This document shows positions 43,207 through 49,680 of a stretch of 64,000 nucleotides of DNA, piece after piece. How positions within the stretch are numbered: position 1 is the stretch's first letter; each line of letters starts with the position of its first letter. The notes below the pieces were generated by a model. It was not told the origin of the DNA. It ran no database searches and saw nothing but the letters and a program-made list of their open reading frames with translations. Both the position numbers and the translations under genes were made by a program. The stretch is from Aminobacterium mobile DSM 12262 (GTDB lineage Bacteria; Synergistota; Synergistia; Synergistales; Aminobacteriaceae): positions 248,001-312,000 of the forward strand of contig NZ_JAFZ01000001.1 of NCBI RefSeq assembly GCF_000526395.1, written 5' to 3'.

Positions 43207-43431
43207 CTATGTCTCCTCTATTTGGTGAAAGCTGGCAACATCTATCTTTTTTTTCTCTATAATATGACGAATGCTCTCTTCTTTATCGCAGGGATAGCTA
43301 CATGCTAATCCACAGCTTGCCGAAAGTTGCCGCGGAACGGGAATTATTTTTACATCCAGTCCTTCTTTCCTACAGATCTTCTCGAACATAAGTGCCATAC
43401 TTGTGACATGGAAAGTAGCCAAGCATTTCAT
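43207..43431 (-). CDS. DUF3343 (putative Se/S carrier-like) small protein
   Basis: A 74-residue DUF3343 protein. The pattern FHVTSMALMFEKICRKEGLDVKIIPVPRQLSASCGLAC, quoted here as FHVTSMAL, KIIPVPRQLSASCGLAC and the final SFHQIEE, matches a family annotated as putative Se/S carrier-like and found near selenium or sulfur transfer genes; the single conserved Cys pair is CGLAC. I start at ATG 43431 (MKCLATFH), since GGGGAGGTG lies upstream and the longer frame has no homology. It diverges from the leader-peptide operon. No selenium gene is visible in the window. Confidence 0.8.
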   Translation of the reverse strand: MKCLATFHVTSMALMFEKICRKEGLDVKIIPVPRQLSASCGLACSYPCDKEESIRHIIEKKKIDVASFHQIEET

Positions 43432-43576
43432 GATTTTTCTCAGACACCTCCCCAAAATAGAATGATACATAGAGAGTATATCTTCTTTAGAGAAAAATTT
43501 ATTGTACAATTTCTCGCGTTATTATGGATTAAAAATGATATTATTGTTGTCTAATGATACATTTGATCAGAATTCC

Positions 43577-43605
43577 TTGACGATAGGTAAAAATCATGGT
43601 ATGAA
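43577..43605 (+). promoter_or_regulatory. Promoter of the Phe-leader operon
   Basis: TTGACG (43577-43582), 17 bases, then TATGAA (43600-43605) preceded by TGG, an extended -10. Predicted start of transcription is near 43612, about 27 bases before the leader ATG. Confidence 0.7.
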
Positions 43606-43638
43606 AGGGTAAATTTTCAGAAAGAGGCGGAGTCTTTT

Positions 43639-43719
43639 ATGAATTTGTCTTTATTTATCAGTTTTGTTTTTTCCTTTTTCTTTTTTGCTTTTTGGTATCG
43701 ACGCGGGGGGGCTTTCTGA
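43639..43719 (+). CDS. Phenylalanine-rich leader peptide
   Basis: A 26-codon open frame too short for ordinary gene calls. It starts with ATG six bases after GGAG (43629-43632) and begins MNLSLFISFVFS; four consecutive Phe codons follow, then A-F-W-Y-R-R-G-G-A-F and TGA. Nine of 26 codons are Phe, and Phe-Trp-Tyr are adjacent at codons 18-20. This is the composition of attenuator leaders such as PheL, in which a ribosome starved for charged tRNA(Phe) stalls on the Phe codons. A perfect terminator begins 33 bases after the stop. A small hydrophobic membrane peptide is the alternative, but the terminator argues for attenuation. Confidence 0.78.
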   Translation: MNLSLFISFVFSFFFFAFWYRRGGAF

Positions 43720-43751
43720 GCCGACCGGCGCAGGTCTTCTTTTGGCGCTTA

Positions 43752-43789
43752 GGCCAGGACCCCCAGAAAAGGGGTCCTGGCCTTTTTTT
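43752..43789 (+). terminator. Attenuator terminator of the Phe-leader operon
   Basis: A perfect 12-bp stem, GGCCAGGACCCC (43752-43763) with GGGGTCCTGGCC (43771-43782), then seven T's (43783-43789). It lies inside the transcription unit, 84 bases before the DUF3100 start. A G7 tract at the end of the leader frame (43705-43711) could pair with the C5 of its first arm (43760-43764) as part of an antiterminator. Confidence 0.92.
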
Positions 43790-43872
43790 ATTTTTATAGC
43801 CCGAGAAAGGAGGAGAGGGATAGGGCTTTGAAATCAATATTTTTTTAGCATTTATTTAGAGGAGGTACAATT

Positions 43873-45054
43873 ATGGATGCGGTGAGTGCTCTTTTAGTCA
43901 TAGCACTGGTATATGCGGTGGGAGACGTTGTCGCCCAAAAAACAAAAGCTATATGTTCCATGCTCTTTGTATCAGGCATTGTCTTCATGGTTGGGTTTTG
44001 GTTGGGGATTCCCACCACTCTTTTTGAGGATGCAGTCATTGTAAAGTTCTCTTTAGCTCTCATTCCCATGCTCATGGTTCATATGGGAACGTTAATGAAA
44101 TTGAGAGATTTAAAAGATGAGTGGAAAACTGTTCTTATCGCATTGGCTGCCATTGTAGCAGCAGCTATTGCCTTGTTCTTTTTAGCAGCTCCTATTATTG
44201 GTAAACAATATGCTCTTACGGCAGCGGGGCCCATCTCCGGAGGAGTTGTAGCTACTCTTATTATGAGTGAGGCGGCAAAAGCCAAGGGATTGGAGTCTGT
44301 GCTGGTTTTTGTGACCCTTTTGTTGGTTCTTCAGAATTTTGTTGGTCTTCCTATAGCTTCTATTTGTCTTTCCAGAGAAGGACGACGTTTGCGAGATATT
44401 TTCCGAAAAGGAGAGCAAGGACAGGCAAATCTGCATGCTCAAGTGAAAAGTGATCCAGAACAGCCCACATGGAGATTGTTCCCCGCAACGCCAAAAGATC
44501 TTCGTACGCCTTTTATCCTTCTTATGAAAGCCATGTTAGTAGGGTGGCTCGCAGTTTGGTTTGCAAAGGTTCTTGGTGGAGTAATCAATCAGTTTGTTAT
44601 GGCTCTTATTTTCGGCATTATTTTTTATGAGATAGGGTTTCTTGAACATAAGATTCTTGATAAGGCAAATTCCACGGGGTTGGCTCTTTTTGCTCTTTTG
44701 GTTCCTATCTTTATGAGCCTCAACAAAGCAACCCCTCAAATGGTGGCTTCTCTTATAATACCTATTGTAGTAGCCTTTGCTATATCGGTTGTAGGAATAG
44801 TAGCAGTGGCCTTTCTTTCTGCCAAGATCTTTGGTTATTCTTGGGAGATGAGCCTTGCTATAGGTGTTTGTTGCCTTTTTGGTTTCCCGGGTACTTTTAT
44901 CGTCTCTCAAGAAGTAGCGAATGCGGTAGGGGAGACATCAGAGGAAAGAGATTTTATTTTGACGGGGATCCTTCCTAAAATGCTAGTCTCTGGGTTTACA
45001 ACTGTTACGATCGCTTCTGTATTTTTAGCTGGATTTTTAGTCAAATTCATATAA
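43873..45054 (+). CDS. DUF3100 membrane protein, probable transporter
   Basis: A 393-residue DUF3100 protein with roughly 11 hydrophobic helices and a hydrophilic loop near residues 168-205. Pieces: VALVYAVGD-like VIALVYAVGDVVAQKTKA split, PMLMVHMGTLMKL, GPISGGVVATLIMSEAAKAKG, and GVCCLFGFPGTFIVSQEVANAVG. The family is uncharacterised; neighbours in many genomes are amidohydrolases, as here (next gene 16 bases away). RBS GGAGGTACAATT precedes the ATG. The Phe-rich leader and terminator upstream imply control by aromatic aminoacyl-tRNA supply, so uptake of N-acyl-amino acids, peptides or aromatic amino acids is a reasonable inference. Confidence 0.85.
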   Translation: MDAVSALLVIALVYAVGDVVAQKTKAICSMLFVSGIVFMVGFWLGIPTTLFEDAVIVKFSLALIPMLMVHMGTLMKLRDLKDEWKTVLIALAAIVAAAIALFFLAAPIIGKQYALTAAGPISGGVVATLIMSEAAKAKGLESVLVFVTLLLVLQNFVGLPIASICLSREGRRLRDIFRKGEQGQANLHAQVKSDPEQPTWRLFPATPKDLRTPFILLMKAMLVGWLAVWFAKVLGGVINQFVMALIFGIIFYEIGFLEHKILDKANSTGLALFALLVPIFMSLNKATPQMVASLIIPIVVAFAISVVGIVAVAFLSAKIFGYSWEMSLAIGVCCLFGFPGTFIVSQEVANAVGETSEERDFILTGILPKMLVSGFTTVTIASVFLAGFLVKFI

Positions 45055-45069: not shown

Positions 45070-46269
45070 ATGATTTATGCTCAAATTGCTGTGTGTGCCG
45101 AGGAAATAGAACAAAAAGTAATAGAACTGCGACGGGATTTCCATGCTTATCCGGAACTTCCCTGGAAAGAAGTAGAAACATCTAAAAAAATAGAAGAAAA
45201 TCTTCGATCTCTTGGATATGAAAATATTCGTCGAGGTTTTGGCGGAACAGAGAGCGGGGTAGTGGCGGATATAACGGGAAAAGCGGATGGGCCTACCCTC
45301 GCTCTTCGTGCAGATATTGATGCCCTTCCCCTCCAGGAGGATGTGGATGTACCATGGAGATCTACTTGTGATGGAGTAATGCATGCCTGTGGTCATGATG
45401 CTCATGCTGCCATTCTTTTGGGTGTCGCCCATATATTGGCCTCCTTGAAAGAGCAAATCTCTGGTCGAGTCCGGCTCATATTTCAGCCTGCAGAAGAATC
45501 AGGAGTCCGATCTGGTGCCAAGCAGCTTATTGAAGAAGGGGCCCTTGATGGCGTAGATGCTATTGGAGGTCTTCATGTCTGGAGTCCCTTACAGATGGGG
45601 AAGGTTGGTTTTCGAAAAGGGGCTATGATGGCTTCTGCGGATATTTGGGATATTTATGTGAAGGGGCGAGGTGGTCATGGTTCCAGACCTCACGAAGCAG
45701 TAGATCCCACCATTGCTGCCGCTACGATGATATCCACTGTCCAGACGATCGTGAGCAGGGAGATTGACCCTCTTGAGACAGTGGTAGTAAGTGTCGGGAA
45801 GCTGGAGTCGGGAACAGCTCCTAATATTATTCCCGAAACGGCTCATATCCAGGGGAATATACGCACAACCAGTCCTGTTATTCGAGATAGTATGGAAGGG
45901 CGGCTTCGGCGAATTGCGGGCGGCATAGCTTCAGCCCTTCGTTGTGAGGCGAAGGTCGCCTTTACTCCCGTATACCCTGTGACGGTGAATAATGATGCTA
46001 TGGCAGACATGCTTCTTGACGTCGTGAAAAAGGTAAAGGGAGAAGAGAGTTATGAAGAAGTTGCCACTGTTATGGGATCTGAAGATTTTAGCTTTTATCA
46101 GCAGAAGGTGCCTGGGGTCTTTTGCTTTCTAGGTATGGGAGATCCAGCAAAAGGGAGTGACGCACAACATCACTCACCCCAGTTTCAAGTTAACGAGGAT
46201 GTGTTGAAGGATGGTGTGATTCTCCTTTCTTCTTTTGCCTTTCACTTCTTCCAGGCATCATCGTGCTAA
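45070..46269 (+). CDS. M20 amidohydrolase (aminoacylase/hippuricase type)
   Basis: A 399-residue M20D amidohydrolase. LRRDFHAYPELPWKEVETS at the N-terminus, LALRADIDALPLQED, MHACGHDAHAAILLG (metal ligands), FQPAEESGVRSGAK (catalytic Glu), the lid-domain GRGGHGSRPHEAVDP, and GSEDFSFYQQKVPG near the end are the usual motifs. Relatives release amino acids from N-acyl derivatives (N-acetyl-, N-benzoyl-amino acids, gamma-glutamyl-type amides). It lies 16 bases after the DUF3100 transporter under the same leader. Together they would import and deacylate an N-blocked, possibly aromatic, amino acid. Confidence 0.92.
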   Translation: MIYAQIAVCAEEIEQKVIELRRDFHAYPELPWKEVETSKKIEENLRSLGYENIRRGFGGTESGVVADITGKADGPTLALRADIDALPLQEDVDVPWRSTCDGVMHACGHDAHAAILLGVAHILASLKEQISGRVRLIFQPAEESGVRSGAKQLIEEGALDGVDAIGGLHVWSPLQMGKVGFRKGAMMASADIWDIYVKGRGGHGSRPHEAVDPTIAAATMISTVQTIVSREIDPLETVVVSVGKLESGTAPNIIPETAHIQGNIRTTSPVIRDSMEGRLRRIAGGIASALRCEAKVAFTPVYPVTVNNDAMADMLLDVVKKVKGEESYEEVATVMGSEDFSFYQQKVPGVFCFLGMGDPAKGSDAQHHSPQFQVNEDVLKDGVILLSSFAFHFFQASSC

Positions 46270-46348: not shown

Positions 46349-47479
46349 ATGAAGTCTCTACGGGAACCTTATAGAGGCTGCCAGGTTGCAGATCTCGATA
46401 CTCCTTCTCTCTTGGTGGATCTTAATGTGATGGAGAGAAATATCCGATGGATGCAGGAAAAAGCTAACATATCGGGAGTGAAGCTTCGGCCTCATGTGAA
46501 AACCCATAGAACTCCCGATCTGGCTAAAAAACAGGTAATGGCTGGGGCGCAAGGAATTACTGTGGCAAAGCTCGGAGAAGCGGAGGTTATGGCCTCTGCT
46601 GGCATTAATGACATTTTTGTAGCCAACGAAATTGTTGGTGATATTAAAATGGAACGGCTTCTTGCCTTAAGCCGAAGAGTTCGGATTGCTGTGGGTGTGG
46701 ATAGCGCGGAACACATAAAAATGTTGGCTGAAGCCTTTGATGGAGAAGCCCGTCCTTTGGATGTCATGATCGATATAGATACAGGAGATCATCGAACAGG
46801 CGTAGCTCCTGGAGAAGAAGTTTTGGAACTGGCACGTCTTATTCTTTATCGGGATTCCGTGAGGCTGAGGGGTCTTTTTACCCACGATGGTCATAGCTAT
46901 GAAGCGAATGATTTGGCAGAAATCAGAGCCATCTCTTTAAAAAGCCAACAAGATGTGATCGAAACAGCGACGTTATTAAGAAGAGAAGGCATTGCTGTAG
47001 AGGAATTAAGTGTCGGCTCTACTCCGTCCCTCTTGGTTTCAGATATTGTACCTGGTGTTACAGAAATTCGTCCAGGTACCTATATCTTTATGGATGGAGA
47101 CCAAGCGCAGGTTATTGGTTCATATCAACACTGTGCCCTTTCGGTCTTGGCGACAGTTATAAGTTGCCCGTCACCTGACAGAGTGGTTCTTGACAGTGGT
47201 ACGAAAGCCCTCACTTACTTTGTACAGCGTCATGGCATAACACGAAGTAGGGGGTTTGGTGTTCTTAAAGAGCGGTCATCTGTTTATCTTTATAGTTTAT
47301 CTGATGAGCACGGCCTTTTCGCCCCGCCTCAAGATATGTCTTTTCATATTGGAGATAAGGTTGAGATTATTCCTAACCACGCTTGCCCTACATGTAATTT
47401 ATATTCGGTTATGTATGGGGTCAGAAATGGAGAGGTGCAAGAAGAGTTCAAAATTTTAGCAAGGGGAATGTCACGATAA
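46349..47479 (+). CDS. D-threonine aldolase / D-serine dehydratase-like PLP enzyme
   Basis: A 376-residue fold III PLP enzyme with an alanine-racemase-type barrel (about 15-265) and a C-terminal metal-binding domain. LDTPSLLVDLNVMERNI starts the barrel, the PLP lysine is in RPHVKTH (about K51), SVGSTPSLL and EIRPGTYIFMDGDQ follow, and the C-terminal NHACPTCNL holds the His and Cys metal ligands seen in D-threonine aldolase/DSD1 enzymes. It would cleave D-threonine or another D-beta-hydroxy amino acid to glycine and an aldehyde, or dehydrate D-serine. Third gene of the leader-controlled operon, though a hairpin precedes it. Confidence 0.88.
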   Translation: MKSLREPYRGCQVADLDTPSLLVDLNVMERNIRWMQEKANISGVKLRPHVKTHRTPDLAKKQVMAGAQGITVAKLGEAEVMASAGINDIFVANEIVGDIKMERLLALSRRVRIAVGVDSAEHIKMLAEAFDGEARPLDVMIDIDTGDHRTGVAPGEEVLELARLILYRDSVRLRGLFTHDGHSYEANDLAEIRAISLKSQQDVIETATLLRREGIAVEELSVGSTPSLLVSDIVPGVTEIRPGTYIFMDGDQAQVIGSYQHCALSVLATVISCPSPDRVVLDSGTKALTYFVQRHGITRSRGFGVLKERSSVYLYSLSDEHGLFAPPQDMSFHIGDKVEIIPNHACPTCNLYSVMYGVRNGEVQEEFKILARGMSR

Positions 47480-47576: not shown

Positions 47577-48827
47577 TTAGATGTTTTTGTCTATCTGGCG
47601 CAGTATTTCTTCTCGCAATTTATTGAGAGGAATGCCGGTCTCCCTGGAGATGCGCTTCAGGTCATCGTATTCAGGATTGACACGAAGGCGCTCCTTTCCC
47701 CACCAAGCTTCTTTAATGCGGACAAGGCCAAAAGTTGTCTCAATTGGAGTAATGTGATGATGTAGCTTTATTCGATCCACTTTATATCGACGAAGTCCTA
47801 AGGTTGTTGTTCCTTTGAGGATTATTTCGGCAGCCTTTTCTTCCATATTCTCCGACACGAGGCAGCAAAGCCGAATAGCGGGGCGGCCTTTCTTCATGAT
47901 AATAGGATCAAGCCATACATCCATAGCCCCAGCAGAGAAAAGACGCTCCATTACTGGCTCGTAATATTGGGGATTCATGTCATCGATATTTGTTTCTAAC
48001 ACGATCCCCTCATCTCGTAAAAAAGGTTCTTCCTTAGTAGCGGTGGAAGATTTCCCTTCGTTCTCTCTTTCAAGAAGAATGGCTCGCAGGAAGTTAGGAA
48101 GATCACTTTCCCGTTCTCCAAGGCCTCGTCCACTGCGAAGAATAATTCCCTCAGGTATGTTCCCAAATTCGTGGGCAAACATTTTTACGAGCAGAGCTCC
48201 CGTGGGTGTAACTCGCTCCATAGGACCTCCCGCAGAATAAATGGGAATGCCCGCCAAAAGCTGTTCCGTTGCTGGAGCTGGCACAGGAAGGATTCCATGT
48301 GCACATTCCACTGTGCCACTCCCAACGTTAAGAGGAGAACATACAATTTTATCTGGAGAGAGCATCTCTATAAGTACACAGGCCCCCACTATATCCATAA
48401 TGGAGTCGACAGCCCCTACCTCGTGAAAGTGTACCTTTTCTGGCGGGAGGCCGTGAACCTTCCCTTCCGCTGTGGCCAAAAGGAGAAAAGCCTTTTTACT
48501 CTTGTCTTTTACTTCTTGGGAAAGACTGCTTTTATCGATAATCTCCCATATGTCCATGAGACCTCGATGGGGGTGATCTTCGCTACTTTCTATCTTCACG
48601 CTGATGCCGGAAAACCCTTTCCGAACTACATCAGAAACGAGAATGTTATACCCTTCGCCCTGATGGTGGACATTTTCATGCCCATGGTCGTGATAATGTC
48701 CATGAGGAATGTGCAGTGTGCTCATCTTCCTCAAAAACTCGTCTCTATCTAGGCCGAGGTCGAGAAGAGCTCCGAGAAACATGTCTCCTGAAATGCCGGA
48801 GAAGCAGTCTAAGTAAAGAATTTTCAT
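47577..48827 (-). CDS. larC: Nickel pincer cofactor synthesis protein LarC
   Basis: A 416-residue LarC (DUF111) protein that inserts nickel into the pincer cofactor of LarA-type racemases, in a CTP-dependent step. LDCFSGISGDMFLGALLDLG at residues 5-24, a His-rich segment (HGHYHDHGHENVHH, about 43-56), KVHFHEVGAVDSIMDIVGA and METNIDDMNPQYYEP-like LETNIDDMNPQYYEPVMERL are diagnostic. It is a single continuous frame, unlike the two-part larC1/larC2 of Lactobacillus. larE lies just upstream; larA and larB are not in the window. Confidence 0.94.
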   Translation of the reverse strand: MKILYLDCFSGISGDMFLGALLDLGLDRDEFLRKMSTLHIPHGHYHDHGHENVHHQGEGYNILVSDVVRKGFSGISVKIESSEDHPHRGLMDIWEIIDKSSLSQEVKDKSKKAFLLLATAEGKVHGLPPEKVHFHEVGAVDSIMDIVGACVLIEMLSPDKIVCSPLNVGSGTVECAHGILPVPAPATEQLLAGIPIYSAGGPMERVTPTGALLVKMFAHEFGNIPEGIILRSGRGLGERESDLPNFLRAILLERENEGKSSTATKEEPFLRDEGIVLETNIDDMNPQYYEPVMERLFSAGAMDVWLDPIIMKKGRPAIRLCCLVSENMEEKAAEIILKGTTTLGLRRYKVDRIKLHHHITPIETTFGLVRIKEAWWGKERLRVNPEYDDLKRISRETGIPLNKLREEILRQIDKNI

Positions 48828-48852: not shown

Positions 48853-49680
48853 TCATTCTACAATCCATTTTCGCCCCCACTCGTATCCTTCCAGATCGAG
48901 TAAGATTTGTTTAAAACCTGCATCTCTTATTATCCCTATAACCTCTTCCCTTTTGGACAAAATCTGCTCAAGTTGAGGCAGTGGAACCTGTAGGCAGGCT
49001 ATATCTTTAAAAACTCGTATTCGAACTTGGCGAAATCCTGCCTTTCGTAGATTCCATTCCCCCTTAGCTACCTGGGCACATTCCCAAGCTTGCAGTTCAT
49101 GCCCTTCCGGAAATCTTGTGGCCAGACAAGCTGTTGGTTCCTCGTTCCACCATGATATTCTTAAATCCCTAGCGAGTTCGCGTACTTTTTGTTTCGTTAT
49201 GTTTGATTGCGCTAAAGGCGAGAATATCTGGGGTATGCCCTGTAAGACTTTTGTTCCCAAACGGGAAGGATCTTTCAGGTCATCGGCGTTGGAACCTTCA
49301 AGGATAAGGTCTGCTTTAAGAGAGCGGGCTACGTCTAAAAGTTCTGTGGCACGGGCTTTTTTACAGTACCCGCATCGCTCCGCGCTGTTTTTCATAACCT
49401 CTTCTATATAAAGTTCTGGGCCTGGGAGAGGCTTTAGCGTGACCCCGAGACTGTGACAATATTGAATGCCTCGTTCCATTTCTTCCGCAAAATGGAGGAA
49501 GGACCTGAACATAACGGCGTGTATTTTTTGTGGGGGGATGAGAGACGCCATAATGCCCACAAGAACTGAGCTATCAATTCCCCCTGAAAATGAGATGACA
49601 CAACAACGACTCTTCTCCAGTTTCTCCAAAATGTCCTTTTTTAGGTATTTGCTTATAACATCACGACTCAAATCTCTCAC
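48853..49680 (-). CDS. larE: ATP-dependent sulfur transferase LarE
   Basis: A 275-residue PP-loop enzyme that gives sulfur to the pyridinium precursor of the nickel pincer cofactor. PP-loop SFSGGIDSSVL (about 30-40), ERCGYCKKARATELL (paired Cys), LILEGSNADDLKD and EPTACLATRFPEG; the Cys in this last motif corresponds, as I recall, to the sacrificial Cys of Lactobacillus LarE. The start (GTG 49680) has only a weak RBS; a TTG at 49671 after AGGTGAG is possible. It forms an operon with larC, 25 bases apart. Confidence 0.92.
   Translation of the reverse strand: MRDLSRDVISKYLKKDILEKLEKSRCCVISFSGGIDSSVLVGIMASLIPPQKIHAVMFRSFLHFAEEMERGIQYCHSLGVTLKPLPGPELYIEEVMKNSAERCGYCKKARATELLDVARSLKADLILEGSNADDLKDPSRLGTKVLQGIPQIFSPLAQSNITKQKVRELARDLRISWWNEEPTACLATRFPEGHELQAWECAQVAKGEWNLRKAGFRQVRIRVFKDIACLQVPLPQLEQILSKREEVIGIIRDAGFKQILLDLEGYEWGRKWIVE

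Follow-up and report, generated by a model that had tools for sequence, protein, structure and literature searches.

A phenylalanine-rich leader ahead of an uptake operon in Aminobacterium mobile is very probably a switch sensing aromatic amino acid shortage

Leader-peptide attenuation is a textbook mechanism for the biosynthetic operons of Proteobacteria and of a few other groups. In Aminobacterium mobile, a member of the Synergistota, a Phe-rich mini-gene and an intrinsic terminator precede an uptake operon, which raises the question of whether this arrangement is a real on/off switch and what it would sense. The analysis of the surrounding 64-kb stretch of DNA (the window) and of related genomes indicates that it very probably is such a switch and that it responds to a shortage of aromatic amino acids. 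More specifically, it is highly likely to be a ribosome-mediated transcription attenuator that senses the supply of aromatic aminoacyl-tRNAs (Phe first, also Trp and Tyr) and a divergent member of a Synergistota-wide family with exchangeable key codons. The case is built on anatomy, conservation, covariation, the match between leader codons and downstream genes, and missing pathway genes.

Anatomy of the leader and the genes behind it

The features of the locus are collected in Table 1. The sequence-only reading had described a promoter, a Shine-Dalgarno (SD) sequence, a 26-codon frame with nine Phe codons, a G7 tract and a terminator followed by T7; all of them could be read directly and are kept in both same-genus orthologues. 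The terminator stem is perfect, as claimed, and measures 13 bp instead of the proposed 12 bp. The window thus contains both an SD-preceded ORF with clustered key codons and an intrinsic terminator between this ORF and the structural genes, three of which follow in the same direction. When both strands of the 64-kb window were surveyed for SD-preceded short ORFs (15–45 codons), the leader ORF, counted at two nested starts, was the only one among 292 with at least six aromatic residues in eight. The calculated fold energy of the whole window leader corresponds to a z-score of -2.5.

Table 1. Features of the leader, the operon and its surroundings, and further elements of the same genome (G000; contigs C1 and C2). 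Plain coordinates are window positions.
Feature	Coordinates	Strand	Basis or remark
Se/S-carrier-like protein (PF11823), divergent neighbour	43207–43509	-	
Extended -10 promoter	43577–43605	+	TTGACG 43577–43582 (-35), 17-nt spacer, TGG-TATGAA 43597–43605; read directly
Shine-Dalgarno-like purine tract GAGGCGGAG of leader ORF	43624–43632	+	conserved GAGG core
Leader ORF MNLSLFISFVFSFFFFAFWYRRGGAF*	43639–43719	+	translation: 26 codons, 9 Phe
Key codons FFFF-A-F-W-Y, proposed ribosome stall site	43675–43698	+	translation; same-genus counterparts SFFFAYWYP, SFFFGFWYR
Predicted antiterminator element (post-key-codon segment, stop codon, terminator 5' arm)	43690–43765	+	folding; R3 match
G7 tract at leader ORF end, predicted antiterminator 5' strand	43705–43711	+	complementary to CCCCC 43760–43764
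Intrinsic terminator AGGCCAGGACCCCCAGAAAAGGGGTCCTGGCCT (43751–43783), then T7	43751–43790	+	perfect GC-rich 13-bp stem
Gene 1, predicted transporter, unnamed family, CitS-like predicted fold	43873–45054	+	sequence searches, AlphaFold model
Gene 2, M20D amidohydrolase (TIGR01891)	45070–46269	+	401 bits vs cut-off 154; PF01546, PF07687
Gene 3, PLP enzyme, D-threonine aldolase / BhcC type	46349–47479	+	profile matches PF01168 + PF14031
LarC (nickel-pincer cofactor synthesis)	47577–48827	-	
LarE/NAD-synthase-like gene	48853–49680	-	
PF11299 (DUF3100) gene	C1:14796–15497		outside the window
L106, YYY leader before PaaK-like ligase	G000:C2:310568–310646		strong R3 match
L107, FFYFYF leader before YkvI-like transporter, aminotransferase, LarAH10-type racemase	G000:C1:955609–955683		strong R3 match
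L200, Met-rich (MMM) leader MNIIMVIAMNSMMMCMCGG... before MetN-type ATPase (ABC + NIL)	G000:C1:433773–433857		weak match, E 0.04–0.05
L201, Ile/Leu-rich (IIIILLVII) leader MNINWNILINIIIILLVIISCGS... before NSS (sodium:neurotransmitter) symporter	G000:C2:237239–237325		weak match, E 0.04–0.05

A small hydrophobic membrane protein, or a chance ORF in front of an ordinary terminator, would account for the same features with no regulation at all. The segment MNLSLFISFVFSFFFFAFW could be a transmembrane stretch, and terminators are ordinary between transcription units. However, this terminator serves the leader transcript only, because the upstream gene lies on the opposite strand, and the promoter is directly upstream of the leader; related leaders such as MWWR, MMMCGM and QQFYFSFYYG are not membrane spans, and leader and terminator are linked by covariation. 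We consider this explanation extremely improbable. A sequence resembling the PF11823-like neighbour is also found upstream in the loci of both congeners.

The first gene of the operon had been taken for a DUF3100 protein, to which the attenuator would have given a functional handle. That assignment was abandoned, and the handle with it: the product has no PF11299 match at E<10, and the true PF11299 gene of the genome lies elsewhere. It is without a Pfam or NCBIfam match, with nothing credible in Pfam even at E<10, and searches against PDB sequences gave no match. An AlphaFold model built from 19 orthologues and paralogues (pLDDT 84) resembles the Na+/citrate symporter CitS (TM 0.62, E 1.3e-5), and gene 1 is accordingly predicted to encode a secondary transporter of an unnamed family, which shares only the predicted fold with CitS and the 2-hydroxycarboxylate transporters and, at about 19% identity, falls outside their sequence family. 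The other two assignments, an M20 amidohydrolase and a D-threonine-aldolase-like gene, were borne out by profile matches. Gene 2 carries the M20 catalytic and dimerisation domains, has YxeP and ILR1-like 2 as its nearest solved structures, and adjoins the transporter gene in most orthologous loci. Gene 3 stands behind this pair only in the window's genus among the loci viewed. Convergent to the operon lie LarC and LarE/NAD-synthase-like genes.

Orthologous leaders and the predicted fold

Close relatives of the transporter occur in 37 of the 183 genomes of the order; a contig scan with the transporter returned one relative only, from a UBA4066 assembly. Both same-genus orthologues keep the promoter (TTGACG N17 TGGTA(T/A)GAA), the terminator and a leader with FFF...(F/Y)WY (MKKSLVREFFSFFFAYWYPCEEAL and MIHFDFINRKAISFFFGFWYRSEGAF), and the first half of the leader is divergent among these species. 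The G-tract and its opposing arm read GGAGG/CCUCC in G001 as against GGGGG/CCCCC in the window's genome and in G002, which looks like a compensatory change within the genus. The orthologous operons of other families have leaders with FYYW, FYFWY, FYFSFYY or Trp-Trp. More distant leaders include MKKNNASGCFYYWQTTSVCPQEPGSA, MKKMIVTGFFYYWQTMMVCLEEPGSA, MTVFCGSFYFWYGCHTVGLSPETDV and M(K/R)RMSSQQFYFSFYYGVH.VGI.LRSDV, and a second copy of the operon in distant relatives is preceded by ...NGMWWRSVG....

Orthologues that have the terminator and lack a Phe-rich frame, which would speak against the sequence-only reading, were sought. Aromatic codons and terminator are kept in the orthologues of g1, f10, g22 and g36, leader and terminator are both missing from the family f9 orthologues, and those of family f8 carry Tyr/Ile/Leu-rich key codons (LPYIIILS, FEIVIYLS). 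Phe/Ile codons are found at one g36 locus with a terminator, and a paralogue in G181 (38% identical) has a Met/Cys leader. Thus, of the two features expected from an alignment of related genomes, the compensating stem change was found (in G001), but Phe codons fixed across the gene family were not (f8; G124, with Phe/Ile). Judged from these leaders, the sensed amino acid appears to shift within the transporter family while the key-codon principle holds.

Alternative pairings were analysed by folding 15 leaders with the ribosome placed at defined positions. The predicted antiterminator is a single long extended hairpin, which runs from directly after the key codons to the 5' arm of the terminator and has the stop codon inside it; RNAalifold also arrived at it de novo, with changes on both sides of its pairs. 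A ribosome placed on the key codons leaves the terminator 5' arm paired upstream at a calculated probability of about 0.6–0.9; once the ribosome is moved to the stop codon, the value drops to 0.0–0.2 in 12 of the 15 leaders. In the window's genus the calculated change is smaller (0.7–0.9 to 0.6–0.7), the arm keeping local partners, and moving the ribosome from the key codons to the stop makes the fold less stable, with energies going from about -25 to -31 kcal/mol to about -7 to -12 kcal/mol. Compared with dinucleotide shuffles, the hairpin energies are strong in f8, G123 and G181, moderate in f10 and g1, and weak or indistinct in copy b of g36; the z-scores in the window's genus are only -1.5 to -2.1. 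In silico, therefore, the antiterminator is exclusive with the terminator and dependent on the ribosome position, clearly in most clades and more weakly in the window's genus. A short duplex between the leader and the terminator 5' arm was also considered as the antiterminator and was rejected, since in most leaders, that of the window among them, it did not outperform shuffled sequence, and it scored only slightly above swapped pairs.

From these data we infer the following course of events. RNA polymerase would transcribe the leader with a ribosome trailing behind, and when Phe-, Trp- or Tyr-tRNA is scarce, that ribosome would stall at FFFFAFWY. The RNA from the G-tract to the terminator 5' arm would then be free to form the long antiterminator hairpin, and the operon would be transcribed by readthrough. 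With a good supply, the ribosome would reach the stop codon within the hairpin and melt it, allowing the terminator to form. The orthologous leaders and the folding support the proposal that a scavenging-type operon is attenuated through the ribosome in response to aromatic amino acids.

A related RNA element across the Synergistota

The find is larger than the sequence-only reading proposed, as the same RNA element occurs throughout the phylum at ilv, met, paaK and other genes. When the order was searched with a covariance model built from the hairpin (R1), the element turned up at many other genes. Of its refined versions, R2 found it in 71 of 183 genomes, and R3, applied to the whole phylum, in 100 of 188 genomes and 46 of 63 genera, with family f11, which is not part of the order, among them. 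R3 was trained on loci of other genes and included no leader of the window's transporter family; in the window it gave a sole match, at the predicted antiterminator (E 0.0028). Because this match has an E of 0.09 genome-wide and G001 was missed, the window element is best regarded as a divergent member of the family. Attenuation at this locus would rest mainly on its own anatomy and its orthologues, to which the family adds a strong analogy.

Among 85 further loci that were read, 84 run into an intrinsic terminator, even though the model ends at the terminator 5' arm, and the outer antiterminator stem is closed in 83 (mean z -2.75). Over 84 loci, 92.8% of cells are paired as against 85.7% in shuffled alignments, and the covariation score is 0.340 as against 0.211 (0 of 500 shuffles), in alignments (A3/A4) that were fitted to the model and so favour structure; sliding the partners ruins the signal. 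Of 82 relatives of the element, 68 are preceded by a TTGAC-N15-20-TANNN(A/T) promoter, compared with 2.6% in shuffled sequence.

A conserved RNA core with covariation would also be expected of a ligand-binding riboswitch or a T-box into whose fold the ORF falls by accident, and transporters and amino-acid genes are typical targets of both. However, Rfam gave no match at the gathering score, whether for the window element or for 23 related loci, and only chance-level matches at a permissive threshold, so that the element could not be assigned to a T-box or riboswitch class by Rfam match. Moreover, the sensed amino acid tracks the codons, with the same core at aromatic, branched-chain (BCAA) and Met genes. 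We find a riboswitch or T-box exceedingly hard to credit here.

In 51 of the 57 loci with a known gene function, the leader type agrees with that function, compared with 18.6 on shuffling (p<=5e-5); leaders were labelled automatically by maximum residue count, and the few MMM-containing Met leaders mislabelled in this way were counted as mismatches. The genes for the acetolactate synthase small subunit (ilvN, 14), dihydroxy-acid dehydratase (ilvD, 1) and threonine-dehydratase-like proteins (2) are preceded in all 17 cases by Leu/Val/Ile leaders (for example LVLVLVLLIS and IIIITS). Met-rich leaders, with MMM in nearly all, stand before MetQ (9), O-acetylhomoserine sulfhydrylase (metY, 6) and MetN (1). 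The PaaK-like CoA ligases (24) have YYY/FFF-type leaders in nearly all cases, the sodium:solute symporters (SSS; 6) an FWYGYYF leader and the PorC-like proteins (2) an IIIIIS leader. A group of seven transporters, presumably YkvI-like from our reading of the sequence and without a Pfam match, has aromatic leaders in the window's genus and Leu/Val/Ile leaders elsewhere. The ilv and met loci serve as internal positive controls, and the window's own genome holds four further elements (Table 1).

These swaps bear on a second kind of leader peptide. In a TnaC-like mechanism, the nascent aromatic-rich peptide itself would bind a free aromatic amino acid within the ribosome, arresting translation; aromatic residues before a membrane transporter and a catabolic gene recall tnaC-tnaB, and the stop codon has a nearly fixed position within the element. 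Nevertheless, FWY, LVI, MMM and WW are exchanged wholesale in front of the same RNA, following the downstream gene. Aromatic/Ile leaders with a recognisable core GUGGG(A/U)CC translate it in frame 0 (35 of 35), and BCAA/Met leaders do so in frame +1 (31 of 31); therefore it is the RNA that is conserved and not the peptide, and the residues after the key codons form no conserved arrest motif. The element is also common to the biosynthetic ilvN, ilvD and metY, which fits starvation sensing. An arrest peptide is in our judgement very unlikely, and attenuation by charged-tRNA supply is the preferred reading.

Several loci depart from the usual arrangement. Two aromatic leaders (YYFYYWF) with a terminator (L182, G043:C14:72517, and L195, G052:C163:4185) have no long ORF within the following 1–1.9 kb and no Rfam match, and four Leu/Val/Ile-rich leaders with a terminator in f7 genomes (L153–L156) have no clear gene directly downstream. 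At L112 (G178:C76), the aromatic leader and terminator are intact and the PaaK-like frame present in relatives is absent; the gene has possibly been lost or broken. One genome (G059) has two PaaK-like genes, each with its own attenuator (L122, RFFF; L123, RYYF), and these leaders could report differing preferences for Phe and Tyr derivatives.

Aromatic supply and known attenuators

In the window's genome (99.7% complete), chorismate synthase, prephenate dehydratase, prephenate dehydrogenase and TrpA were not found, and the positive-control genomes all matched. Chorismate synthase, prephenate dehydratase and TrpA are also absent from the two congeners, G182, G178 and G038; prephenate dehydrogenase matches in the two congeners were sub-threshold only. 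Aromatic scavenging makes sense in the window's genus because it is without chorismate synthase. The genomes with Trp-Trp leaders G119–G122 are without TrpA and with prephenate dehydratase, and in those of the leaderless f9 the aromatic pathway genes are mostly present. An exception to this correspondence between leader and auxotrophy is L072 (G123:C187), a Trp-Trp leader in a genome (82% complete) with a TrpA match.

What the operon brings in may be a blocked aromatic amino acid or peptide, a suggestion helped by the M20D partner and the missing shikimate pathway; the CitS-fold transporter, the M20D hydrolase and the PLP enzyme would import and hydrolyse such a derivative in a shikimate-less organism. 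Other loci of the family point in the same direction. PaaK together with indolepyruvate oxidoreductase, which is present, could yield aromatic amino acids through the reductive carboxylation of aryl acetates. Phenyllactate and other hydrophobic 2-hydroxyacids are substrates of LarAH10-group enzymes (PMC7583248, PMC11770544). The transporter/M20D pair would add an N-acyl or peptide-bound aromatic source, and the three kinds of loci would together be consistent with an aromatic-acquisition regulon where the shikimate pathway is lacking.

On the broader scale, we think it reasonably probable that a phylum-wide Synergistota family reuses one antiterminator/terminator RNA, exchanging key codons and the reading frame through the core, so that the leader labels the substrate class of the gene that follows. 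In shikimate-less genera it would form the regulon proposed above, fed by aryl acids via PaaK and a reversed indolepyruvate oxidoreductase, by aryl-lactates via LarAH10/Ldh2-type operons, and by N-acyl or peptide-bound aromatics via the CitS-fold transporter and M20D. One RNA family with interchangeable amino-acid specificity would then govern uptake and salvage as well as biosynthesis genes across the phylum. The substrate class of orphan transporters (CitS-like, YkvI-like, SSS) could be read from DNA through the leader codons, and the way in which amino-acid fermenters without the shikimate pathway secure their aromatics would have an explanation open to testing.

The closest textbook relatives are pheL/pheM (pheA, pheST) and trpL of enterobacteria, with which the element shares tandem key codons in a short ORF, a terminator before the operon, an alternative antiterminator and proposed stalling on uncharged tRNA. 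In contrast to pheL and trpL, the predicted antiterminator is one hairpin that extends across the stop codon and takes in the terminator 5' arm, a separate 1:2 hairpin being clear only in f10; the genes serve uptake and hydrolysis, and the aromatic leaders mix Phe, Trp and Tyr. The tnaCAB operon of E. coli likewise has a leader peptide before uptake and catabolism of an aromatic amino acid, but tnaC senses free Trp via an arrest peptide and Rho, whereas charged-tRNA sensing with an intrinsic terminator is favoured here.

Outside Proteobacteria, the Corynebacterium ilvB-II uORF (uORFC-75-1; PMC11109978, PMC10272879) is alike in its Ile/Leu/Val-rich uORF with one antiterminator-containing stem and one terminator stem; it differs in belonging to another phylum and serving one gene and one amino-acid group, not a motif family with changing specificity. 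The Acholeplasma uORFC-13-1 (PMC8632094) has a Phe-codon uORF just before a terminator, but it precedes the biosynthetic aroF in unrelated taxa. Firmicutes His-leader attenuators (PMC9413887) and an attenuation survey (PMC2965389) also concern leader peptides outside Proteobacteria, though with a single specificity (His); in the parts of PMC9413887 consulted, Synergistetes are mentioned for the HisR repressor only and not for attenuators. A screen by Stav et al. (2019; PMC6429828) included 78 intergenic regions from the Synergistetes member Thermovirga lienii, for which the main text gives only the SLH motif; two F/Y uORFs at shikimate genes appear there with no source genome stated. In the open-access literature we found no report of leader-peptide attenuators in Synergistota, in a search that covered the main text of PMC6429828; an overlap with its supplements is possible. 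The attenuator family across the phylum is thus apparently previously undescribed. The mechanism belongs to a known kind, shared with the leaders above, and what is new, as far as these checks reach, is the RNA family, the way it is reused with exchanged codons, and the genes it targets.
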